Shown in pieces: positions 7,295 to 37,900 of a DNA stretch of 64,000 bases. The position numbers were made by a program, and so were the translations under genes. Position 1 is the first letter of the stretch, and every line of letters begins with the position of its first letter. Below the pieces are notes generated by a model. That model saw only the letters and a program-made list of their open reading frames with translations. It was not told where the DNA came from and ran no database searches. Source of the stretch: Antedon mediterranea (taxonomy: Eukaryota > Echinodermata > Crinoidea > Comatulida > Antedonidae); NCBI RefSeq assembly GCF_964355755.1, contig NC_092673.1, positions 3,353,001-3,417,000 of the forward strand, in the 5' to 3' direction.

Positions 7295-7558
7295 AGCTTG
7301 TTTCCCACCAGAACGCAACGCAGCGACACATCGACACAAAGTGCTGTATTGCGTAAAACGTGGTTTCCACCAGCGACGCAACGTAACGCAATGCAGCGAC
7401 GTATCGACGCAAAGTGCTGTATTGCGTAATCACAAGTGGAAACCGACGACGCAATAGTGCTGCAAACATCGTCGCAGGTTTGATTTGACGCAGGCGGGGA
7501 CAAACATAATTATTAGAAGGGCATTTGCTTAGGTTGCGTCGCTAGTGGGAACCAAGCT
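7295..7558. mobile_element. MITE family 2 (GCGTTGCGT type), copy a
   Basis: Ends are AAGCTTGTTTCCCACCAG and its inverted counterpart CTAGTGGGAACCAAGCTT, flanked by TAA and TTA. The inside contains a partial self-duplication (GTGCTGTATTGCGTAA occurs twice). No coding capacity. Open frames here on the minus strand are only repeat sequence. Confidence 0.75.
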
Positions 7559-7563
7559 TTACA

Positions 7564-8378
7564 TTAACATGCATTATGAGGTAACAATGTCATACCTGGA
7601 GAACACCCCGTGTTACATTTGTTGCACCTTTGCTTCTTTGTTGACGACGTATTGAATTTAGCCCATTTGTGACCACATTTAGGACATTTAAATGTTTGCT
7701 TTTCTTCTTTGAGATTCATACAGTTATAACCAATTTCCTCACATTTACCGCAACGTTCCTGATCGTGCGCTATTTTATATCTTTTTTTTCTTTCCCCGCC
7801 TTTTCCACTAAAAAAAGTAAAACATTGGAATTGTGGCGATGTTATGGTTTTATTTGATACCGACAACCGATAATAGTTAAGATGTGGCCATGAATTAGAC
7901 ATTTGTTTCTTCATGATGTGCACGTGACTAGAAGGACGACTATGTGACGGGGGAGATGATGCCAACGGCAATAACGAAGGTGAGGTGTAACGATAGTGAT
8001 GAGAATAATGATCAGAAAAAATTAATGTTAATATCCCTCGTATAATGGAAATCGATCAATCAATCAAACAAACATTTATTTATAAACCTACACCCCCGCC
8101 AATCCCCCCACCCCCTCCTCCCCGAAAAAACCCCACATTCAATGTTATAGGCCTACCATACGAAGTGCAGAGAGGTAGACAGTTAACGAGTATTTATCTT
8201 GACGGTTCAATTTGATTACCTGGTGTATAGGGAAGACCTCGTCTTCACATTCCTGACAAGTTTGATGCGTATTGGCCCACGAGTACGCACTAATCCATTC
8301 GTTACCACACTCGCAATGAAATTCACCCATCGCACGATGAGAACCCTGGTAGGGCGTCTTTATATTCTTTCCCTTCTT
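7564..8378 (-). pseudogene. 3CxxC zinc-finger gene, copy C, frameshifted between exons
   Basis: Exon 8,220-8,378 (53 aa, phase 0) reads KTPYQG, then MGEFHCECGNEWISAYSWANTHQTCQECEDEVFPIHQ, the first zinc-binding half. Exon 7,564-7,807 follows acceptor ttttttag and carries HDQERCGKCEEIGYNC, the second half. It then continues with a second zinc-like unit, FKCPKCGHKWAKF..QRCNKCNTGCSP, not seen in the other copies. The second exon is 244 nt where the splice needs a multiple of three. Counting one A fewer in the eight-A run near 7,782-7,789 restores continuity, so this is either a +1 frameshift or a homopolymer error. There is no acidic tail. A MITE copy lies just upstream (8,425-8,577). Confidence 0.65.
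8080..8140. other. C-rich tract in copy C intron
   Basis: C-rich run (8,090-8,133) inside the intron of copy C; low-complexity sequence with no recognised function. Confidence 0.4.
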
Positions 8379-8424
8379 CTGTAAACAAATTAAAAATTCT
8401 GTGTTTGTAATTTGCTCTATCTAT

Positions 8425-8577
8425 GTGTAAATCTACACTATCAAATGTTATGACAAAAAATGTGATGTGCCCATATGGACATGTCGTATCACTGCCATAT
8501 TTGGGCATATCATCACCATATTTGAGAACATCACACTTTGTTTGTCAAACTAGTTTGATAGAGTAGACAGAGCTTTA
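8425..8577. mobile_element. MITE family 1, copy 1
   Basis: Family 1 has termini AGCTCTGTCTACACTATCAA and a GTGATGTGCCCAAATATGG core. This copy has a worn left end and an intact right end (GTAGACAGAGCTTTAA). Confidence 0.7.
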
Positions 8578-8579
8578 AA

Positions 8580-9660
8580 TAATGATGAACAATCTTTCCT
8601 AAAAATACAACGAAATAGTAATAATGACATCAGATTCACGAGTGGAGTGAAGAGCATCATGACATGACACCCTGTGCCATTTTCTTCAGCAAATTCAGAA
8701 CAGTATTAACTATTGTTAATTATATCAAATTAATGAAAGTAGGCCTACCACACTCAGAACCATGTTATAGTCTGTTCCTCTCTTTAAATCCAAGTGCACG
8801 AAATTTAATCACGTTTGAAGCATCATATTTGAAGTATTAAAACGAATGTTTTGTATATCTAAGGTGGGCCAATCTGATTTATTTATTAGTGATTATTGTT
8901 CTGATAACGTAGGCCTACTAACCTTTACGTCATGAAAATGAAATACTGGTAGGCCTACTACCAGAAAGCGACGATAGTGATAGTGACAATTAGTTTGAAT
9001 AAAAAATTCCTTATTATTTGTATTAACATAAATTTATATGTTATTAATGTTATGTTAATTGGAAAATCTAAATAATGTTTTTACAATGTAGGCCTCTTTT
9101 TAATTAATTACGTTTGTTGTTAAAATAGAGCTAGACGAATTGATTTAGTAGTAATATTGAAAGTGGAAAAATAACAGTATAGGCTACATGACAAGCCTAT
9201 ATAACACTAGGACTACATTTACGCAGAATGAGATAACCACTATATTAGAATAGCACAATAATAAATGTTTTGTAGTATTGCAATCAACCTCATGTTTTTA
9301 ATGTTAGTGTTATGAGCAACATAATCGATGATATCATGCAATGATTAAATGACTTGCAATATATCGAACTTTATGATTTCTCTTGCTTGCTTGATCTAAA
9401 GATAGAATCTACATCAATGTCACACAACATGATTCAGACTTTGGGCCGACAATTAGCCTACCCTCATAATCGATTTTCAGCGTTTTATTTATTCAAACTG
9501 AATGTTGTTATTTTTAGTAGGCCTGTGTTGGTGATTAATTATAGATATTTCCCCACTACGGATTCGCGATATTGGAGCCTCAATCCGGCACATGCTTGTT
9601 TTTAATATTAATTTCATTGGCCAAAACACTATCATAAATATTGATGTCGTATAAACCATT
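8580..9660. other. Intergenic, AT-rich
   Basis: No gene recognised. A short acidic frame ending ESDDSDSDN and stop at about 8,960-8,992, followed by AATAAAA, looks like a relic 3CxxC tail. The tRNA-like fragment AACCATTAGACCATTGTAAC occurs near 9,655. Confidence 0.4.
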
Positions 9661-9668
9661 AGACCATT

Positions 9669-9951
9669 GTAACATTGCACTGCCTATTTATAGAAATGCA
9701 TGTTAAATTTAGCCACTGGAAAATTCTGCACAGAGTATAAAATATTTCGAATCTGATTATCTCAGCTACAACCGTGAATTTCTTCACATATGTACATCAT
9801 TTTGTACATATAAACGATTGTAACATTGTAATGTCTATTTATAGAAATACATGCTAAATTTAGCCACTGGAAAATTCTTCACAGAGTATAAAACATTTCG
9901 AATCTGATTATCTCAGCTACAACCGTGACTTTCTTCACATAATGTACATCA
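9669..9951. repeat. Two tandem copies of about 151 bp upstream of copy B
   Basis: GTAACATTG..CTATTTATAGAAAT, TTTAGCCACTGGAAAATTC and TCTCAGCTACAACCGTGA each occur twice with a spacing of about 151 bp. They end about 70 bp before the start codon of copy B and so fall in its likely promoter region. Confidence 0.8.
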
Positions 9952-10019
9952 CAGGTTCGGCTATAAGTGCAATATTAATATAAATTCACAGGCAGCCGCA
10001 TAATATTATAACAGTTACA

Positions 10020-11266
<1,247 letters not shown>

Positions 11267-12478
11267 GTAACAAAAACCTTGTTCGCACCGGACTTGAAAA
11301 ACTGATAAATTTAACCACGGCAGATTTACCAAATGCCATTGGAAGATTTGATCATCGTTCGCACGTTCGATATTTTCACGCAGTAATTTTACCGACATTT
11401 AACCGTGGTGTTAAAAACAGCGATTGACTCATAATGTGTATTAACATGAATCGCGAGTTCGGATTAAACCGAACCGCGTGGTTAGCTTTAACCATTAAGA
11501 CCATTGTAACACTGTTAGTTACCGTAGGCCTATTTCTTGTGAGACTTAAAGTGTAGCAAGTGCTCACTACACGTGGAGAACCGTTTATATACCGATAATG
11601 TATTATGGGGCAATGATTGGAATAGAATGCAGAATCAAGTGTTAGACTTAGTATTTTGATTATGAATGTGGTACAATAGATAAATGGAAAAGTTGTGACG
11701 AAGATACTATATAAGTAATATATATAAGTACTATATAAATATAATATGTTTTTTTCTACGGAAGTGATTAACAATTTATTAAAACTGCAAAATTGTCTAC
11801 CGTTACTCAAAGTCTGATTTTATTTATCTTCATTTTTTGCATTTAAGCAATTCAATTCAATTCGTATTTATTAGTAGGACTACTCCTTAATGTTATAATT
11901 AATAAAATGCTTGCTGGTTCTGTTTTAACATGCAAAACTCATGTATTAAAATGTCATAGGGCCTATATTAATCATCTTCTGATTCTTTTACAATATTCCA
12001 CTAAGTTGTTTCCCTTTGATGTCCTTCCGGTGCCGTCGACACTTTATTTCTAACCTGAAACAATGAAATTGATTGATTTAGCCTACACAGTCAGGGGGAA
12101 CATGACAAAAGGCTTCCTACTTTCTAGGTGTTTTATGTACATAAAATTAATAATCGTATAAGATAACAAGTGGAAATGGATGCTTGTCTCACACAACATT
12201 TAAAAAGTTAGGCCTACGGAAGGAAATATTAAACATTCGATAACATTTCATAATTAACAAGTTCCAATCTGCATCTAGTTTTCTAATCCAAATTTATGTA
12301 TATCGTATAATTAAACATCTCTTTGTTCTCGCGATTTAAAAACTAAACTGGTATGGCATCTATGAAAACTGTTAGGTAGGCCTATACCTCCTCTTCAGTG
12401 ATTTATCAACATACAGGCCTACCCTACCGCCCGGCCTAACCATATCCCTTCTACTGATTTCACGAATGTAATTCTTAC
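11267..12478. other. Intergenic between copies B and D
   Basis: No exon recognised; in particular no KPDGLD-type second-half exon that would complete copy D. ATACATGAATCGCGAGTTCGG-like and ACCTTGTTCGCAC words occur at 11,277-11,470. A small AT-rich frame at 11,376-11,810 shows no homology I recognise. Confidence 0.4.
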
Positions 12479-12646
12479 CGTCTGTTTGTGTGGATAGACA
12501 TAAACTCCACACCTGATACATTTTTGTCCCACATTGGCCTTGCTAATAGAATGCCACGTCTCATTGCAATCACTGCAGTAGAACTCTCCGTACAACGACA
12601 TGTCTTCATCACCTTGATACGGTGTCAACTCAGTCCTCTTTTTCGT
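12479..12646 (-). CDS. Exon D (3CxxC first half)
   Basis: Acceptor aaaatag, donor after ACG at gtaaga; 168 nt, the same length as E, 185 bp downstream of it. Four zinc-ligand Cys are kept. Confidence 0.7.
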
Positions 12647-13583
12647 CTATTTTCAAACAAATTTTAAATTCAATTTATTTAATTAATGATTTTTTAGTAA
12701 TTGTATGTATATTAATTATTGTTTTAATTTCAAGGCCAGCCTGAGTCACCCGTTTTATAGGCCTATATCACATTCACGCGAGTCACCAATAAGTGTTGTC
12801 AACCACCCTGACTGATTTTAGAAATCCTACCGTTTGTTTGCGTGGATCGACGTCAACCTTACACTTTGGACATTCTTTCCCCTGGTAAGCCCATGTATTA
12901 TTAACACTGTACCAAAGCCGATCGCAATGACTGCAGTAAAACTCTCCGAACATCATTGCTTCGCCTTGATATGGTGGCAAGTTGTTTTTCTTTTTTTTCT
13001 AATTCAAATAAACATCATTTAAATGAATTAGTGATAAAATGTAGATGATTCTAATAAAAAATATTTATCTCTGGAATATTATTACATTAGGGTTGTTGTT
13101 GTTTGTTATTTTAATTTCCTCTTTCGTTAGAGTATGATAAATAGTTTAATTACATTAAATGTTCTCTATAATGTGTACATTGCTGCCGATTTTGAGCAAA
13201 AGCGCGTTCTGTAGTTTTACAGTCGTTTTTTAGTTAGCTAAAAGTAGTTGCATTTTATAATCTGTTCATTGAAATTGATAATGACCTCATGATGGAGTCG
13301 GAACGTCGTTCTTTTGTAAGCGTTATTAACTAAAATGTTTATATATGTAAATACCGTATATAATGACGAGGAAGAAGTACATTTTTAGTTGGATTGTTTG
13401 ATTTTGGTATAGGCCTACTGTATTTGCAATTTCTTACCAACAGCCTTCTAGGGGGGACGCGTCTCTGTTGCGCTCCTCTCGTTACAACCCGCCACGGACC
13501 AATAATAGTGGTTTCATGCTTGAAAAGTGCTGGCAATACCTGTTTATTACGGTACAACAAAACAAGTAGGTACTATCTTGATC
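12479..13583 (-). CDS. 3CxxC locus D/E: two first-half zinc exons in series
   Basis: Minus-strand locus read from 13,583 down. A 5' exon candidate (13,438-13,583; donor gtaagaaatt) contains NKQVLPALFKHE, homologous to the 5' exon of copy F, but its frame meets TAG near the acceptor. Exon E (12,831-12,998, 56 aa) reads LPPYQG, FGEFYCSHCDRLW..TWAYQGKECPKCKVDVDPRKQT. Exon D (12,479-12,646, 56 aa) reads [44 protein letters not shown]. Both are phase 0 at both ends, so E spliced to D would give two consecutive zinc halves. D lacks the aromatic W of SWA. No second-half exon follows before 11,266. Either a remodelled gene or a decayed duplicate. Confidence 0.6.
12831..12998 (-). CDS. Exon E (3CxxC first half)
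   Basis: Acceptor gaattag, donor after ACG at gtagga; 168 nt. Compared with A, B and F, the donor lies one codon later (KQT). Starts with a run of Lys codons. Confidence 0.7.
13438..13583 (-). pseudogene. 5' exon candidate of locus D/E, disrupted
   Basis: Homologous to 15,463-15,607 (shared NKQVL and the gtaagaaat donor) but 146 nt against 145, with a TAG in the donor-compatible frame close to the acceptor. Using an AG just after that TAG would bypass it. Confidence 0.45.
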
Positions 13584-13589
13584 CTAAAA

Positions 13590-14895
13590 AACATCTGAGC
13601 ATGCGTGAAATGAAAATAACATTGTCAACTATTCGCCGAATTCTCTCTATCACAATAAGTCGAACAAACCATTACACCGTCAGATATTTAGCAAGGAAAT
13701 CTAACAATTTTATTAACATAGGAAGAAGCTAAGAAGCAGAATGGTCATTACAAAAGAAGGCCTCTATGTCTACTAGCAGTAAACGTGATTGTATTATCAG
13801 GCCTACAATCTTAATTCCCAGAACATCTTCAGATTTTGAAAGCGACAATTTCCAACACTGTTAATATAAAATTACCATTTTGGATGAAAAAAATGTAATT
13901 AAATTAAAAATAGCAACTTACCCTGCGAAGCATGATCTGAATTTGGAAGGAAATTTATAGATTTTAAACCATTTACAGCTCATAAAGTTTGGAATATTGT
14001 ATATAAAATCAGTACGTTGCGTTATTCTCTGCTGGGATTTTCCAGCGGATTTCAAGAATTAGTGGGAGTTCCTGTTTATGTTCACTTTCATAGCGTCCTC
14101 TGTTTGATTCATGTTCTGGTTATGAATCGACCCGACATATACGATACAACGATCAAACCAATATACGTTGTTAACTTTATATATGATAGGCCTATATATT
14201 TTTATTTGTTTTAGAAATAACATTTCCTGGATTTATTGTATGATAATTATGATATTTAATAAAGACATGCAACTCTGGTGGTAATATATTTTACATGTTG
14301 AGATATACAGTTTGCGGTGGTGTACACATTTTATATCAACATATTGATTTCGCCATCCAAACCTTAACAACATATATTTTAATCTAAAACTTGGCTTGGC
14401 TTATGTTGTATGTCAGGGTTCACCGCAGACAGGCAGTTCTATCAATCTGTTAATTGCAACAGTAAAGAATGTCACAATTGAGAGGTTGTCAATTTTGTAA
14501 ACTTTTAAGAATTAACAATAAAGTTTGTAGCAAAGCCTATATCCAGGTCTGTAAAATATGGATACACTTCTTTAATGGAAAAATCAATTCATTTGGGCCT
14601 AGGATATTACAAAACGGTATACGATACACCTTTAAATAAATGTCATTTGTTACATTAAAAAATATATATATAGACCTATAAGCATTATTGCATAAAGGAC
14701 ATTGATAGCACCACTTTAGTAATTGTTTTCTAGTTATAGAGAAAAACTGAAACTGAGAAATTAATTTGTGGACAATACAGTATTTTAGACAAAGACAAAA
14801 ATGTACGTAATATAATTTCATTGATCCAATCGTTTACGACTATTCACGGCCGATGTTTATATGTAAAGGTAATTGAATCCAACAAGTCGCCATCG
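13590..14895. other. Upstream region of D/E and tail side of copy F
   Basis: No further exon recognised. 13,910-14,110 is homologous to 16,070-16,280 upstream of copy F (ACCCTGCGAAG/ACCCTGCAAGT, GGGATTTTCCAsCGGATTTC, then a TAGCGYCCTCT block). The rest is AT-rich. Confidence 0.5.
14034..14043. promoter_or_regulatory. NF-kB-like site upstream of locus D/E
   Basis: GGGATTTTCC matches the kB consensus GGGRNNYYCC. It lies about 450 bp upstream of the 5' exon candidate of D/E and in the same duplicated block upstream of copy F. Confidence 0.35.
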
Positions 14896-14898
14896 TCG

Positions 14899-15607
<709 letters not shown>

Positions 15608-15609
15608 CT

Positions 15610-16660
15610 AAAACGTGTGTGAAATGGATGTCTATCGGTATTGGAACGGTCAACAACATCTCGTCAAACTTACTATTACCATGGAGAAATAACTCCATGC
15701 TATTACGGATATGAAATATACATTGTTGTTACCAATTTAAAGAGTAAAAGTAAAAGAAAAGATTGGTGGTCAAAGAGACTAATAGACCAAGAAATTCCTA
15801 CAATAACATACTGTTAAGGCCTATATTTAATAGGCCTATGAGGCCTTTATCTTATAGGCTTTTATAGACATAACTATACTAGCACAATCAATCATATTTT
15901 GTATAGTTACGATGCACCTCCAGTGACAGGTTCAACAAAAGGACGTAGCGCGCCGCAGGGTAATTTTACCAATCATAAGCGTCAACTCACTTGTGTTACG
16001 CCTTTGTCGTTGCGTTCAAGTTGGAACCAATTGCTTGTTATAAACTCAATTACCATTTTAAATACAAGAATAAAAATGAGAATTACCCTGCAAGTACGTC
16101 CGAACATGATCCGTTTTTTAAAATGAAATCAATTTACCATTTTGCTACACATTATGGGAATCATGAATAACATGTCAGTGCGTTGGGATTTTCCACCGGA
16201 TTTCAAAAAATTAGTTTGAGTTCCTGTCCTGTGTGTGTGTACATGGTTACTTTTATAGCGCCCTCTCTGTCTGAGAAGTCGCGAAGTAATAACATTTAGA
16301 AGTTACATGACAATCGACAACGTTACATGAAATTTTTTATTGTTTTGAACGAATTTTTCTTGATATGATTGTAACATTTATACAAAATACATTTATATCT
16401 AAATAAAAAAACGAATAGTGTTCATTCGACTTTCATGCAAACTAATGTATTATTATACTGTCATAAAAACTCCAAACTTAGCTAATATAATGTTCTCTTG
16501 AAAACAACTGATAATTTTGCATCATTTTACAAACATTACAAATCGTTTAGTTTCTTAAAACCGTTGAAATATACAGCTTTTTGCGAGAAAATATTTGACT
16601 AAAATGTATATTTATTAAATTGCATTCAATCAATACTTTACAAGCCCGGATGTTCTTGTA
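15610..16660. other. Upstream region of copy F and downstream of G
   Basis: No exon recognised. Contains the duplicated upstream block (16,070-16,280) shared with 13,910-14,110 and partly with 17,430-17,540. Confidence 0.5.
16185..16194. promoter_or_regulatory. NF-kB-like site upstream of copy F
   Basis: GGGATTTTCC followed by ACCGGATTTC, in the block shared with the upstream regions of D/E and G. Confidence 0.35.
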
Positions 16661-16666
16661 AAACGT

Positions 16667-17157
<491 letters not shown>

Positions 17158-17159
17158 CT

Positions 17160-17628
17160 ATATATAAATAATGTTTATTATTATACAGCCGGACTTATCG
17201 ACCTTTACTTAATTTACAAAGGTTGTAAGCATGCTGTAATTTAAATGCAAAAATTATGAAAAAATTACCCTTCCACCACCTGGCATGACTCCCTTATATT
17301 ATTTCTAATGAAAAACCGAGTTCCACATCAATTAACCAAACCAATGTAATAATAATAATATATCAATTGTACAAAACGTAGTAGATCTAATCCTGTTAAT
17401 ATAGTCAATTGAACTTCCGTAGGTTTTTCCGTAGGATTTTCCACCGGATTCACGACGCACGTAACGTCATAGTGACGTCACACACTCGGTGGACAGCATG
17501 CAGTACTTTTCAAAGCGCCCTCAATTTCTGACAGCAATCAAAAACTAAAAGTACATACAGGGGGCGGAAGGAGTTTGAGTGAGAAGGCTTTTAGAGGTTT
17601 GGATATTGTAATGGAGAAATAATAAAGG
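17160..17628. promoter_or_regulatory. Divergent promoter region between copy G and ABRAXAS1
   Basis: The 470-bp gap between two divergent genes. It holds AGGATTTTCCACCGGATT (17,433-17,450), matching the kB-like block upstream of D/E and F, and a GC-richer stretch with ACGTCA words. No TATA box is obvious for ABRAXAS1. Promoter activity is inferred from position. Confidence 0.5.
17473..17480. promoter_or_regulatory. CRE palindrome
   Basis: TGACGTCA, the full CREB/ATF palindrome, with half-sites ACGTAACGTCA beside it, 150 bp upstream of the ABRAXAS1 start codon. Confidence 0.45.
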
Positions 17629-17703
17629 ATGGCAAAAATTAAGATCAATGGTACTACTTGGGGAACATTGTTCTTTGATCATGTAAATAGCCTTGGTGAT
17701 CAG
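17629..17703 (+). CDS. ABRAXAS1: ABRAXAS1 exon 1
   Basis: Start codon and 25 codons; WGTLFFDHVNS matches the first MPN strand. Donor gtaatg. Confidence 0.93.
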
Positions 17704-20700
17704 GTAATGTTTATTGGTGTTTTACGCTTGCTATGTAGTCGCTATCCTAGCCTAGGCCCTCCCTGTAGTACTTGCTCGATACTTCTTGCCTTCCACATGT
17801 CACCCTTTCCAGGGAACATTCTGTGTTGCATTGCATAACAATCTGAAATGGTAGGCCTACAAAACGTAGGTCATTATATCACACTGTGGATCTATGACTA
17901 CTATGACCAATTTCTTAAATTTAAATTTCACATTATTATAATATGAGCCCACATACTTATTTTTTAATAATTAATATAATTTATAATAATTATATTAATA
18001 ATTGATTACAATAATTAATAAATAATAAATATAGCCTAGACCTAGAGGCCTAGGCTATATTATATCAGGGAGTTGTTAATTAAAAACTCCCTGATTATAC
18101 TATTAGTTATTACTATATCCTACTACTAGGCAGGCTACTAACTTCGCCTAGTTGAGGCCTAGCTAATAAGAAGCATATTGCTAGGTAATTACACTCACTA
18201 GTTTACACTATCACACCATTTTATTGTTTAACTTCCTAAAATTGTATACAGTATATTTGAGATTCATCTAAATTAATTATTTATTTTTTTAATTTATTGT
18301 ATGACCATTGTCTTTTTATATTTATCTATAGGAGGGCTTCTTGATTGGTGATGTGACAGAAAATGTAACATCAAACATCAGTGACTCGCAATTAACCACA
18401 TATAAGAAAGATATATGTACAAGTAAGGTTAAAGAAAAAGTGTCATGATAAGAAATTAATTTTAAAAATCGTAATATTAGTGTAAACTTTCCAAATATCT
18501 TTTGGTAGTAAAGGCACTTTTAAAGTGACAATGGTTTCTACACAAACAAAGGATGAATCATGTTGTGAATCCTTCTATCTGTATTCATTTTATCATGGAG
18601 TAATTAATTATTTTCTTATTTTACAGTCATCCAATCAACTTATGCATGTGAGAGAACTGGCAGGTATGTACTGTACAGAGACAATACACTTTTTTTTATA
18701 TACTTAATATTATTATATTGTACTTAACACATTTTATTACATTCTAGTTTTTATAATAGAAGCGGACATGTGAACATTGCTGATGTCCAGTCTGTTCTGC
18801 AAGATAAACACACAGTAAGTATTTTAGTTTTTTAACATGCACTCACTGTATTAACATGGGACCAACGCCTTTATGTTCTATCCGAAGGGGTGAGACAATG
18901 TGAGTAAAGCATTTTGCAAGCATTAAAGGATACAAATAATATGTCACAAATAGACTTGTTCTTATTCCTCTAACATGCTATTTCAGTACCTTACCATTAT
19001 TCCATATTTTCTTTGTTTACAGAAAGTTGTAGGGTGGTATAAATTTCGACGCAACACACAATCACAGATTTCGTTGCGAGAGAGGGCTGTGCATCAAAGC
19101 TTAGAAAAAGCGTTAGGTAAAGGTCTGATACTTGCAATATTTACAGCTCAACAGACATGGAATCAGTCTACACACACATTTGGGTATCAGTTATTCTCCT
19201 TCAAAAACAAGTAAGTTTATGGTCTGTGCTTGATAGTATGTCTCACCAAGGCAATCTAACAACAGGACACTGAGCTTGCCTTGCCAAGATAGGAACTCGT
19301 AACAGTCTTTTGATCTTATGTCTGGCTGCAACAAATACCAACAGTACTGTACTATGTACATATTCTCTGCAGCGCGCGTTGTCTGTTAAATGGGTGTGGA
19401 ACTGATCATGTCGCAGCCACTGATAAATCCTTTGATCTCTGGAGCTCAGTATCCTGTTGTTCGGTACGGCCTCTAGGTCATAGTAGAACTAGAAAATGTC
19501 AACATCATTTTTTATTTGTCGTTCAAAGGGTTGCTTATAACTTTTCAAATTTGTTTATTTCTAGAAAATTTGTGCCTTTACCTATTGAAGTAATTAATCT
19601 GGGAGACACATCACAATCAGATTATAAAAGAGCAAGTGAAAGTGTGCCCTCTATAGGCTCCACATATGATACCATACTTAATAAATACAAGTAAGTAGCC
19701 ACATACCTTGTTCGCACGTTATCATGGTTTTACCACATAGATTAACAGAAGAGTTGAACTTCAAGATAGCACGGTTATAATTGTTTTTGTATGTTCTACT
19801 GGGTAAGCATTGGTCGGCAAAAGTAACCACTAGACTTAGGGAATTGTGGCCAACATTCAAATTCAAACTTTATTTTTGGAGAATTAAATAATATAAATAA
19901 TAAGGTTATTAGAAAGTTATAAAATAGTTTTCTACAATTAAATAAATTAAAATGTTTTTAGGAGTGTGTTTGTAGATAATAATGATAAGAATAGAAAGTC
20001 TGGTGTGCCTTTGATTTAGGACAAAAAAGTGAATGAAAGAAAATGATTAACCAATTAAATAAAATGTGTGTGTTTTTATTAAAAGGAGTGTTTTTGTAGA
20101 TCCAAGTGGAAAATCAATAGCTTTAGTCAAAATGGAAGAAATGAATAACACAATGCAGTCAGAATTAGAGGTAAGATGATAAAGCTTCAATAAATGGTCA
20201 TTTCATTAATAAAGGTAAAACTTATTTACTATTTCCTCAGAGCCCTGTTTCTGTACTTAGGACTTTACAAAACAGGACAGTTAGCGGAGGACGACGAACA
20301 TCCTGTGTTTGCTAGAGAATAAAATCGACATAGCCGGGGCCCTTCTGAATTGCTTGGCTCTGGTGATGCAGCATAAGCCTTCTTAGCTAGGGTCCTCTCA
20401 TTCAAACTACATTCAGACTACCAACACCACTTTTGGTTTGTGTAATACCGTCTTTGATGCAAATACGATTTTGACAAGTCCAATCACATGATTTCATCAT
20501 CAATAACAATAATAAAATTGTTGCATTCCATACAAATGCTTTATTTAAATAAATAAATAATTTATTATTTATGTCAATGTGTAGAATATTAGTCAGGAAC
20601 TTCTGAGAAGTGAGGCGAGTGTTAGCAAGCTGAGACTGGAGGTTGAAGAACTTAGACGGAAAGCGGCAGCAAAAATACCAAAGAGGTCTGAAGAAATTGT

Positions 20701-22912
20701 CAAACCTGATGAAAGTGTAAAAAACAATACAAATGAAGAAACAGATGAGAAATTGCAGGAGAATATTAAAAGAAGTGTAGTGAATCACTCATCACCAATA
20801 AGCCCTAAAGGTATGTAGTAGACGTTGTCTAGTACTAGTCCAACAATGTTCAATAAGCCCTAAAGGTATGTAGTAGATGTTGTTTAGTACTAGTCCAACA
20901 ATGTTTAATAAGCCCTAAAGGTATGTAGTAGACTTTGTTTAGTACTAGTCCAACAATGTTCAATAAGCCCTAAAGGTATGTAGTAGATGTTGTTTAGTAC
21001 TAGTCCAACAATGTTCAATAAGCCCTAAAGGTATGTAGTAGATGTTGTTTAGTACTAGTCCAACAATGTTCAATAAGCCCTAAAGGTAGGTAGTAGACGT
21101 TGTCTAATACTAGTCCAACAATGTTCAATAAGCCCTAAAGGTATGTAGTAGACTTTGTCTAGTACTAGTCCAACAATGTTCAATAAGCCCTAAAGGTATG
21201 TAGTAGATGTTGTTTAGTACTAGTCCAACAATGTTCAATAAGCCCTAAAGGTATGTAGTAGATGTTGTTTAGTACTAGTCCAACAATGTTCAATAAGCCC
21301 TAAAGGTATGTAGTAGATGTTGTCTAGTACTAGTCCAACAATGTTCAATAAGCCCTAAAGGTATGTAGTAGATGTTGTTTAGTACTAGTCCAACAATGTT
21401 CAATAAGCCCTAAAGGTATGTAGTAGATGTTGTTTAGTACTAGTCCAACAATGTTCAATAAGCCCTAAAGGTATGTAGTAGATGTTGTTTAGTACTAGTC
21501 CAACAATGTTCAATAAGCCCTAAAGGTATGTAGTAGATGTTGTTTAGTACTAGTCCAACAATGTTCAATAAGCCCTAAAGGTATGTAGTAGATGTTGTTT
21601 AGTACTAGTCCAACAATGTTCAATAAGCCCTAAAGGTATGTAGTAGATGTTGTTTAGTACTAGTCCAACAATGTTCAATAAGCCCTAAAGGTATGTAGTA
21701 GATGTTGTTTAGTACTAGTCCAACAATGTTCAATAAGCCCTAAAGGTATGTAGTAGATGTTGTCTAGTACTAGTCCAACAATGTTCAATAAGCCCTAAAG
21801 GTATGTAGTAGATGTTGTTTAGTACTAGTCCAACAATGTTCAATAAGCCCTAAAGGTATGTAGTAGATGTTGTTTAGTACTAGTCCAACAATGTTCAATA
21901 AGCCCTAAAGGTATGTAGTAGATGTTGTTTAGTACTAGTCCAACAATGTTCAATAAGCCCTAAAGGTATGTAGTAGACTTTGTCTAGTACTAGTCCAACA
22001 GTGTTTATTATGGGTATGTTCAGATCCATGGAGGTATGCTTTCGTATCGCAATGTCATATTATAATTAGCGTTGTAACAGCAAAGTGTTCAGATTTGGTT
22101 AACACTTTTGTTTGAAACTGAATTGTCACCGATTCGGGCGAACATCTGGTATGCAGGAAATTAAATTTGATTGGTTAGATGTCAAAATCGTTAATGCATG
22201 ACTTTTGTATTGTAAGCATCGTTCACTAATCTTGTACCTGGTGCGGTTGTAACAAACAACAATCAGTGTCTTAAGAAGTGGCTTCTACTAATCTTTTCCT
22301 GGTTCAGACCTATGGATTTGTATGCTGCGTATGATACAAAAGCATAACTCTGTAGGTCTGAACAAGCCCTAAAAGACACTCTGAACTAACTTACTTGCCT
22401 CAAGTGGTCTAGCACAATAGCATGTGAACAGTGAAATTGTATGGTTTACCTTGGATAGTTGTTTCTAATGATTTATAAACAATTTTACTAAATTTCTGGT
22501 TGTTATTTTATTTTTAGGAGATTTCAGTTTGGACGAGCTAAAATCCGGTAACAGAAAATTGTCAAATGAAATATCAATGGATCATGAAAGTCCTGAAGTC
22601 GTAAAGGAAGCTAAAGAAGACATTACAGACCCATTTGCTGGTCTCCTATCAGAAATGAAAAACGCTTTAAAAACTTCACCAGGGTTTGTGAAAAGTAGGC
22701 AGCGGTTAAGCACTGATGAAGGGACCGCAAAAGATTCTAATAGATATCGTGCGTTCAGTGATCCACCAAAAAACATATCAAAGAGAAATCAGATTGATAA
22801 CAATTTAGTAACGAAAGAACAAAATTTAAAGAAGGCACATGACGACAGTGATGTAACCAGTATTTCTGATAAAGATGAATCATTTTGCCAGTCAGACTCA
22901 CCCACCTTTTAG
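17629..22912 (+). CDS. ABRAXAS1: BRCA1-A complex subunit Abraxas 1, nine exons, 429 aa
   Basis: Scaffold of the BRCA1-A complex, which brings BRCC36 deubiquitinase and BRCA1 to K63-ubiquitin at DNA breaks. Exons: 17,629-17,703; 18,332-18,422; 18,627-18,663; 18,748-18,814; 19,023-19,210; 19,565-19,690; 20,086-20,170; 20,585-20,810; 22,518-22,912; every phase joins. Residues 1-170 form the catalytically dead MPN domain: EGFLIGDV, ISDSQ, SFYNRSG, KVVGWYKFRRNTQ. There is no JAMM HxH motif, as expected. From about 223 comes a heptad-rich coiled coil (LLRSEASVSKLRLEVEELRR), the part that pairs with BRCC36. The acidic, low-complexity tail ends SPTF, the phospho-SPxF ligand of BRCA1 BRCT repeats, which separates Abraxas 1 from Abraxas 2. 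Human Abraxas 1 is 409 aa. Intron 8 is a minisatellite that repeats the donor site. Confidence 0.96.
18029..18095. repeat. Two adjacent hairpins in ABRAXAS1 intron 1
   Basis: ATATAGCCTA/TAGGCTATAT (18,029-18,060), then ATCAGGGAGTT with loop GTTAATTAAA and AACTCCCTGAT (18,064-18,095). Perfect arms; function unknown. Confidence 0.8.
18332..18422 (+). CDS. ABRAXAS1: ABRAXAS1 exon 2
   Basis: EGFLIGDV and ISDSQ; acceptor ctatag, donor gtaagg, ends phase 1. Confidence 0.93.
18627..18663 (+). CDS. ABRAXAS1: ABRAXAS1 exon 3
   Basis: 37-nt exon (IQSTYACERTG); acceptor ttttacag, donor gtatgt, ends phase 2. Identified from flanking phases. Confidence 0.85.
18748..18814 (+). CDS. ABRAXAS1: ABRAXAS1 exon 4
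   Basis: FYNRSGHVN, equivalent to human SFYNSSGEVN; acceptor attctag, donor gtaagt. Confidence 0.93.
19023..19210 (+). CDS. ABRAXAS1: ABRAXAS1 exon 5
   Basis: VVGWYKFRRNTQ, the most conserved block of the family; donor gtaagt. Confidence 0.95.
19565..19690 (+). CDS. ABRAXAS1: ABRAXAS1 exon 6
   Basis: FVPLPIEVINLGDTSQSDYK, end of the MPN domain; acceptor tttctag, donor gtaagt. Confidence 0.92.
19962..20019 (+). pseudogene. Duplicated, decayed copy of ABRAXAS1 exon 7
   Basis: Acceptor gttttta-g followed by GAGTGTGTTTGTAGAT, nearly the same as the start of exon 7 (GAGTGTTTTTGTAGAT at 20,086) and with similar upstream intron sequence. Its frame reads SVFVDNNDKNRKSGVPLI and stops at TAG (20,017-20,019). 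If spliced in, it would truncate the protein before the coiled coil. Confidence 0.65.
20086..20170 (+). CDS. ABRAXAS1: ABRAXAS1 exon 7
   Basis: SVFVDPSGKSIALVKMEEMN; acceptor attaaaag, donor gtaaga; start of the helical part. Confidence 0.9.
20585..20810 (+). CDS. ABRAXAS1: ABRAXAS1 exon 8
   Basis: Coiled coil (LRLEVEELRRKAAAK) then a Ser/Lys/Glu-rich linker ending SPISPK. Its last 15 bases and its donor gtatgt are the first unit of the 55-bp minisatellite. Confidence 0.92.
20796..22005 (+). repeat. 55-bp minisatellite, 22 copies, each with a copy of the exon 8 donor
   Basis: CAATAAGCCCTAAAG followed by gtatgtagtaga starts at 20,796 and every 55 bp to 21,951. Copies differ at a few positions (gatgttgttt, gacgttgtct, gactttgtct). 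The first copy spans the end of exon 8 and its splice donor; the other 21 are intronic. 55 is not a multiple of three, and in the exon frame each unit reads through to TAG seven bases past the junction. Confidence 0.97.
22012..22369. mobile_element. TIR element in ABRAXAS1 intron 8
   Basis: Imperfect inverted ends: GGGTATGTTCAGATCCATGG on the left, and on the right the inverse of GGGCTTGTTCAGACCTAC; inner parts also pair (GTATGCTTTCGTATCG against TATGCTTTTGTATCAT). 358 bp, no coding capacity. Abuts the minisatellite. The GTTCAGACC terminus resembles the 47.6-kb element. Confidence 0.65.
22518..22912 (+). CDS. ABRAXAS1: ABRAXAS1 exon 9 (last)
   Basis: Acceptor atttttag. Acidic, Ser-rich tail ending CQSDSPTF and stop. 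Confidence 0.94.
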
Positions 22913-34900: not shown

Positions 34901-37900
34901 ATACAGATTAAAACAAAGAAAGAATTAAATGTTAATATTATTTTTATTATTTCTAATGTTATTAAATGTACTTTTTAAAGTTAAATTAGTACTAGTTCAT
35001 CCATATATTTACCAAATTTAATACTTATTTACACCATTCAATACGAAGCCAATGTACTTTATATAGACTAATTATCGTCATAAGAGGTGATTACATAAAG
35101 ATATTAATAACTTAAACCGAGTAATATTTCCATTTTGACATAGTTTCAATACAATATGATATGTAATAAAGTTTATTGATTGTTGAACATGGGACCAGAC
35201 GACGAAACACAAAAAGCAGACGGCTTTGTCTTGCCCATCACCAAAGATATAGGAATATGAAATTATTAATTTAATAATTAGCAATCAACTAATATTTTAA
35301 TAATCAGCTTTTAATTAATTTATCTTAGATAATAACATTTCGGATATTCGGATAAACTGCAATTTATTATACTTTCAATAGACTTTAAAATAATGTTGTT
35401 GGTTCAATATAATAGAGAATTCAGAGAGATAGGATAGCATAGACATTCAACAACCAGTACACATGTAGTACAATATAAGCAACATAAATTTAAAATCCAG
35501 TAAAACCTATATATTTTCTTAACATTTTGCTGTGACACCATTTAAGCAGGCATAGATTACAACACACATCATAAGCTAGACTCACAAAACGAGCATATTT
35601 TCATCAGAAAGTAAAAATGTAAAGCAACATATATTCGATTTATTTTCATAAATTATATGATTCTTATATTCTTCTTCAAAAGAATAAGTATTAAATTAAT
35701 GTATGGCTATTGGCCAAGTTGATGATCCCTTACCAAGATCGATAAATCCAGAATCAAATACACGATGAATAAATGATGTGAAACGAATCGTGTTGTGGAT
35801 TCTTAGAAGAATTACGTTTACATAAAATCACTAAAACATTCAATCTAATATTAACGATGTTACAACACCCACACGATACAACATAAATTGATTAAATAAG
35901 GATGGTGTACACATTATGGGTTGATAAGTCTTCCTGGAAAAATGGACCATGTTTGGGACTGACATTTTAGTGTTCATTAGACTAAATTTACCAATAGTTG
36001 ACACACCAGGACATGTGTCTTTAAGGATAATTACAACATAGTGTTTCATGATGCAAAACTAAAAGTTGAGATATTGATTTAAAAACAGAAATGTTTCCAC
36101 TAAGTTGACTTACAACATCAACAAGAAAGAATATGGTGGTGATATGCCCAAATATGGTAGTGATATGTCCATATATGGGCACATAACATTTTTGTTGTCA
36201 CATAAAGTTTGATAGTGTAGACAGAGCTTAATACATATGTGTAGATATACTGTAGTGCCAGGAAAGATTTTATAGATGAAAAATATATACTGTAATGCAG
36301 CTAGTGAAAACGTATGTTAGTATGCGTTAGTGAGTAATGACTGCTAGGACACAGATTTGTGGGTGGTACAACACATTTGTTACACTTAATACCTTGCGAT
36401 CGTCCTCAAGACAATCCGAGGAGTTGGACAACGGTGCATCACTAGAAAACTACGAGAAAGTACAAAATACACAAATGGGAAAAAATGTATCAATCTAAAG
36501 GAACAGCACATCATTATTTCCAACGCGTGCGAGCAACGTGGATTACACGCGGCGTGGGACACACGCAACATGTATTACACGCAACGCCAAATGTTGTTAC
36601 GGTTACACCACTGCAACAACACGCCAGTATGAGCATGCAACTCATCTTAATGTGACTCATTTCGCTACAATTTTGTTATACCGAATGAGTCACATTCGCC
36701 ACATTTTCACGTTATAAACAAACTACTAAACATACAGTGATAATTAAGCGTTAGTTGAAACAATTAAAATAATAAATGTTTGTAATTTGAAAATGATTCG
36801 ATTACTATCAGATAATTACACAATACACTATTATGATTGATTAGGTGAATTCAATAAACAAAAGCATTTATTATATATTATATAAAATCAATATTTTAAT
36901 CTATCATGCCAACTAAAATGAATTTGTGTGAATGTTATTATAAATAAGCTTTTTAGTATTTTAAAGTTAATAATGCAATAAGTTGGACATCATAAATAAC
37001 CCTTATGCAAATCAGCATCTTGGGTACAAATCATAAGAGATATGGCACCATAATAAAGACATATGTCAATACTATATATAAATTGTAAAAATTAAAAAAT
37101 AATCAGAAATTAAACATCAAAATAATATGAATGTGCATATTAATCATAATAATGATGAATATTCACATAAATATAATTATAAATATTGATATTAGTAAAG
37201 TTAGTGAATGCTAACCTGCGGTGGTTTCTGCCATGTAACTCCAGACAAAACCTCCGATATTGGACCAGCAGACTTCTTGTCATCATAGAAATCATTCTTC
37301 AACTAATTAGGTAAAAATTTAAATAATGAGGAATAAAATTAGTCAAAAGATTCAAAATATTTTCTATATTCCATTATATACACTATATGTGTTTACAGAA
37401 AAATGTGATGTGGTCAAATATTGGACATGATTATGATGATATTTGGGCATATCATTACCATATTTGGGCACATCACACTTTTTTTTGTCAAACTAATTTG
37501 ACAGTGAACAGCACAGGACACAGTGGTAGGAAGATGTTCATTTTGTTGTAATGTAGAAGAGCAGGGAGATGATATAATCTCTTTTGTACAAAATATACAC
37601 ACAGAACTAGCGGGTTATGATACTTTACCTCTTTTCTTTTGTTCTTAAATTCTTTGGGGTTATCTCCCTGTTTAGCAAACTGCTGCGGATCCTGGATAAC
37701 AATTGAATCTCCACACGTCCCATCTTCTGATGTAATCCACTAGTAATACAAACATACGCATTATATGATTAATTGAATTGAAATATATATTTATACTGGG
37801 TAACCTCTTCAGTCAAAGACTGGTCTCCCAGAGGGCCCAGTTGGTGATCAGTGGCTGTGATGTACTACTACACCGGGGTAACCCCCTACTCGTCTCGAAA

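Follow-up and report, generated by a model that had tools for sequence, protein, structure and literature searches.

The original description of a mirage, in the lancelet Adh gene, reportedly appeared in Nucl Acids Res in 2002. Lancelet mirages are minisatellite-like tandem copies of exon-intron boundaries, named in Adh3 and found in the globins BflGb6 and BflGb9, troponin C and PGBD5; they are reported to combine length instability, homogenised interiors and diverged edges with undisturbed regular splicing (PMC3087553, PMC3902484). In humans, the exon 18 donor of ABCA7 lies within a VNTR of intron 18. About 2% retention of a single unit was seen there whatever the VNTR length; blocking NMD raised the level of transcripts with premature stops, and skipping of exon 19 grew with length (PMC5954066). 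Tandem duplication of exon segments bearing AGGT has also been described as a route of intron gain (PMC4974935).

The array described here, at the junction of exon 8 and intron 8 of an Abraxas gene, which belongs to DNA repair, is a further case of the mirage kind, known but seldom described. Its units span the boundary (15 exonic and 40 intronic bases), all 22 contain the splice signal, and its interior is homogenised with diverged edges, 15 of the 22 units being identical. Lancelet mirages, which lie at the donor or the acceptor side, are likewise tandem boundary copies, many of whose units carry splice signals, and there too the exon-joined copy is the canonical one. The Abraxas array differs from them in its 22 nearly identical donor units and in the gene affected. 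Mirages have been reported in cephalochordates; in the present genome, searches for the GFP family and for a lancelet EF-hand protein, run with no positive control, gave no match, and COX1 is absent from the assembly. As in ABCA7, each unit holds a donor and retention of one unit leads to a premature stop, but the ABCA7 unit is 25 bp long, intronic and starts at the donor, whereas the Abraxas unit also copies 15 exonic bases. Duplication of AGGT segments resembles the array in being a tandem duplication that copies splice signals, yet it creates a new intron, while the Abraxas array lengthens an existing one.

The gene lies on the forward strand of the window, the whole 64-kb stretch of DNA that was analysed. 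Tracing by splice signals and frame gave nine exons, at 17629-17703 (with the start codon at 17629), 18332-18422, 18627-18663, 18748-18814, 19023-19210, 19565-19690, 20086-20170, 20585-20810 and 22518-22912, which join into a 429-aa ORF (17629-22912) without a stop and with the C-terminus SDSPTF. Exon 8 (226 nt, ending in phase 1) had its acceptor and donor read directly; its canonical donor, GTATGT at 20811-20816, is of the same form as that of exon 3. Exon 9, the last exon, ends with the SPTF codons (22898-22909) and the stop. In human Abraxas the phosphorylated SPTF tail binds the BRCA1 BRCT domains (PMC4747905). At 1707 nt, intron 8 (20811-22517) is longer than any other intron of the gene (84-628 nt), and 1155 nt of its length comes from the 21 extra units.

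In Pfam, residues 6-168 of the ORF match PF21125, the MPN model of Abraxas 1, at 2.2e-42. A coiled-coil region follows the MPN domain, and PDB chains of Abraxas 2 and Abraxas 1 align over residues 5-258. Together with the SPTF end, these matches bear out the exon and reading frame proposed in an earlier note on this DNA. The note's assignment to ABRAXAS1 holds as far as the tail and the Abraxas-type MPN domain go, but among PDB chains Abraxas 2 (144 bits) outscores Abraxas 1 (122 bits) for the MPN part, and the gene is single-copy in the genome, where no paralogue or haplotig lacking the array was found. ABRAXAS and ABRO1 arose by a vertebrate split of one ancestral scaffold (review, PMC7692841). 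Given the single copy and the higher Abraxas 2 score, the gene is therefore best named Abraxas with an ABRAXAS1-type tail rather than ABRAXAS1 in the strict sense. Elsewhere in the window, 7500-17200 contains a cluster of small ORFs on both strands with CxxC zinc-finger-like motifs (LTPYQG...YC..C..W...S..WA..GQ.C..C).

Tandem Repeats Finder reported 22.0 copies of period 55 at 20796-22005, with 97% matches and no indels; the repeat score of 2294 excludes chance. The unit consists of the last 15 nt of exon 8 and the first 40 nt of intron 8. Units run head to tail, the exonic part of unit 0 coincides exactly with 20796-20810, and in each unit a donor follows the final 15 bases of exon 8, which end CCCTAAAG. 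Repeat finding and a unit-by-unit split thus agree with the earlier note on the 55-bp unit, its content and the 22 copies. Donors start at 20811+55n (n=0-21), and although there are 22 of them, as the note's phrase of a donor copied 22 times implied, they comprise one real donor and 21 decoys (n=1-21, 20866-21971) rather than 22 decoys. Each unit also has two AG sites 6 nt apart, at unit offsets 37 and 43. Right behind the array, at 22006-22019, TATTATGGGTATGT looks like the remnant of a 23rd unit, including GGGTATGT, which is similar to a donor. Near 22364, AAGCCCTAAAA shares 10 bases with the unit, perhaps by chance.

The repetition had been called exact. A donor does recur at every 55 bp, with an AAAG-GTA boundary in 22/22 units, but the donor reads GTATGT in 21/22 and GTAGGT in one (n=5, 21086-21091), and only 15 of the 22 units match the consensus exactly. 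Most variants fall in units 0, 2, 5, 6 and 21, and units 9 and 17 have a single one apiece; 15 units identical to one another and variants mostly elsewhere form the pattern expected from homogenisation by repeat turnover. The exon and donor bases, 21 of the 55 bp, hold 2 of the 7 variable sites of the unit. Because variable sites neither avoid nor favour these bases, comparison across the 22 units gave no signal of selection on the decoy donors, either for their destruction or for their maintenance.

AAGGTATGT had no further occurrence in the 64-kb window. A search of the 354-Mb genome, to which short-word limits apply, returned no further copy of the array unit, and a query made of the exon and the junction matched one place. 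A different tandem motif of 21 bp, GTGATATGCCCAAATATGGTA, occurs in the window at 36130, 38183, 50501, 53714, 56931 and 58450, as well as at several loci, apparently within a dispersed short element.

The consequences of using each donor were read from the gene model. Only the first donor (20811) is in frame to exon 9; its exon 8-exon 9 junction reads ...SPISPKGDFSLDE... and keeps SPTF. Explicit translation of donors 1-4 gave in each case a 300-aa protein ending SPISPKGM*, owing to an in-frame TAG at 20816-20818 that is read if any donor except the first is used. Every donor after n=4 must include these same three bases, so the stop is the same and the SPTF tail is removed, as the earlier note had it. 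Skipping of exon 8 also truncates the protein, to 230 aa by translation of the model. With n=1 the TAG stands 47 nt ahead of the exon junction; with n=2 the distance is 102 nt, the minimum for all decoys with n>=2. The usual rule for NMD, which is based on vertebrates, requires a stop 50-55 nt before a junction. At 47 nt, the stop of the nearest slip falls under this limit and would escape NMD. A slip to the second donor, the likeliest one, is therefore predicted to yield truncated protein more probably than decay. Human ABRAXAS1 truncated ahead of SPTF acts dominantly (PMC10192442), which, together with the predicted escape from NMD at n=1, makes truncated protein a likelier source of harm from any leak than loss by NMD.

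The decoys appear competent for recognition. Genomic U1 copies have the canonical 5' end ATACTTACCTG, to which the GTATGT decoys and the real donor can pair equally well, with the same duplex energy. Only about 1% of the remaining intronic GT sites in Abraxas match this pairing. Predicted local RNA accessibility was 0.030 for the first donor and 0.002-0.029 for the decoys. We set aside RNA structure as a means of hiding the decoys, because this measure is uninformative when real donors of the other exons span 0.001-0.115. At C5:15.665-15.753 Mb, the U1 snRNA genes include a tandem cluster of at least 42, spaced mostly about 1.86 kb apart.

Equal U1 pairing is also what would be expected if the decoys served as an intronic enhancer, with many downstream U1 sites strengthening the definition of exon 8. 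The exon 8 acceptor, the lowest-scoring of the eight (1.5, against 4.1-15.1, by a leave-one-out matrix), would fit such a need, but the matrix was built from eight sites only, and the decoy donors bear no sign of constraint. We regard this reading as very improbable.

Another reading takes the units as in-frame microexons, in which an internal acceptor at one of the two AG sites of a unit, TTTAG or TACTAG, combined with the unit donor would produce exons of 33 or 27 nt and VLVQQCSISPK-like repeats. Both cassette frames are open and keep SPTF, and the TACTAG score of 5.6 lies between those of the gene's weakest and strongest real acceptors. Open in-frame stretches of 27-33 nt are nevertheless common by chance, TTTAG scores only -3.7, and introns between single units would measure a mere 22-28 nt, which leaves this explanation slightly less credible again than an enhancer.

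Arrays of this type recur elsewhere in the genome. One sample covered kinase and DEAD-box exons in 60 loci (209.5 kb), among which one gene stood out. This gene, DDX54 (PDB DDX54 match 5.5e-88; C1:41.229-41.2365 Mb, loci L060/L077/L083), has a donor array after the exon ending ...FAKE (5 x 78 bp, exon end plus GTAAGT, 100% identical), a second donor array at the next exon, ending ...FDEADR (22 x 55 bp, exon end plus GTGAAT, 96%), and further downstream an acceptor array (2.6 x 39 bp, 98%). The first is in frame and open, so that extra units would insert 26-aa repeats; in the second, later donors add an immediate TGA. A second sample took in five more stretches, from kinesin genes (14.7 kb), two of which had acceptor arrays: a kinesin-2 gene with KIF3B as its best PDB match (L085:1289-2723, 20.5 x 70 bp) and a KIF18-like gene (L088:1315-1866, 11 x 50 bp, 100% identical). 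Both arrays end inside the exon start, and in kinesin-2 all tested upstream acceptors gave early stops. In each DDX54 and kinesin case, comparison with the homologous protein fits the exon-joined copy and supports it as the canonical site.

As a rough figure from a small sample, about 4 in 100 exon edges carry such arrays, two of the four lying in one gene; the roughly 100 edges belong to 30 DEAD-box exons and about 22 of kinesins, all chosen independently of any repeats. For further arrays in these loci (L041, L066, L070 and L075 among them), no link to an exon edge could be made. At C7:26147400-26149000 (L082), an AAA-domain exon judged katanin-like by eye occurs as two neighbouring alternative copies, which are possibly mutually exclusive.

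The other junction arrays also bear on whether the Abraxas array could be an assembly or sequencing artefact that inflated a short duplication. Long near-identical arrays are error-prone, but these units bear ordered private variants, the array sits at a single place in a chromosome-scale contig, and independent arrays of other sequences stand at other junctions. We give an artefact no better chance than the microexons.

The earlier note had proposed that changes in array length tune the loss of Abraxas transcripts through NMD. In its fullest form, this account holds that use of the decoys rises with array length, that the resulting TAG leads to NMD or to a dominant truncated Abraxas, and that length thereby sets activity. 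In its favour, all decoys give the TAG and lose SPTF, those with n>=2 place the stop far enough ahead of the junction, the dominance of truncated human ABRAXAS1 supplies a possible effect, and ABCA7 expression drops as its VNTR lengthens (PMC5954066). In ABCA7, however, unit retention is unchanged by VNTR length, and it is exon 19 skipping that changes (PMC5954066); the low, length-independent retention of one unit there weakens a regulatory reading here. ABCA7 skips the next exon, which Abraxas cannot do in the same form, exon 9 being terminal. The nearest decoy, at 47 nt, probably escapes NMD, lancelet mirages are reported to leave splicing undisturbed, and the presence of similar arrays at donors and acceptors of unrelated housekeeping genes argues against a device special to Abraxas. 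The proposal thus found no support, and we consider length-tuned splicing unlikely, though less so than the enhancer, microexon or artefact readings.

We favour instead, with good but not complete confidence, a mirage-type minisatellite that has recently expanded and is tolerated, the exon-joined donor being used and the copies leaving with the intron. On this account, a 55-bp stretch across the exon 8/intron 8 junction of the single-copy gene would have been duplicated head to tail and expanded to 22 units, probably through unequal exchange or slippage; every added copy lies downstream of the first donor, in the intron. Most splicing would be expected at 20811, because exon 8 would be defined by its acceptor together with its usual length, and the array would be excised within intron 8. 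Should a few transcripts slip to the next donor, they would encode the 300-aa Abraxas, with the MPN and coiled-coil part but without the BRCA1-binding tail. Such arrays most probably grow as tolerated intron DNA, with the choice of exon-proximal splice sites protecting the mRNA.

The nine-exon gene ending in SPTF requires the first donor, which counts for a tolerated mirage, as do the lancelet and ABCA7 precedents, both of which come with RNA data. Against it, when identical donors compete in minigenes, the intron-proximal site can win, a preference that here would put the last unit ahead of the first. Nor is the modelled accessibility decisive, as it gives the first donor an advantage of at most a few-fold. 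Donor use, leak level and any effect of length at this locus are inferred from the described systems, and neutrality and the mechanism of expansion are inferred as well.

The finding of greater interest, and the new one, is that such arrays recur within one genome, at donors as well as acceptors. The lancelet cases in the literature (Adh, the globins, troponin C and PGBD5) concern single genes, whereas several sampled genes here have arrays, at both ends of exons. We tentatively suggest that junctions, donor and acceptor alike, may be preferentially struck by tandem amplification, leaving a few percent of exon edges with 5-22 duplicated splice sites. The Abraxas locus offers a natural experiment on splice-site choice, with 22 donors (21 of the same sequence), of which a single one, the first, preserves the BRCA1-binding tail; with the other arrays in the genome, one RNA data set could show whether exon-proximal choice is close to absolute, how leak varies with copy number and whether such arrays give rise to new introns. 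If junctions are indeed so affected, intron growth across the genome would depend on the spliceosome picking the exon-joined copy every time, and junction amplification would be a source of decoy exons ready for intron gain.
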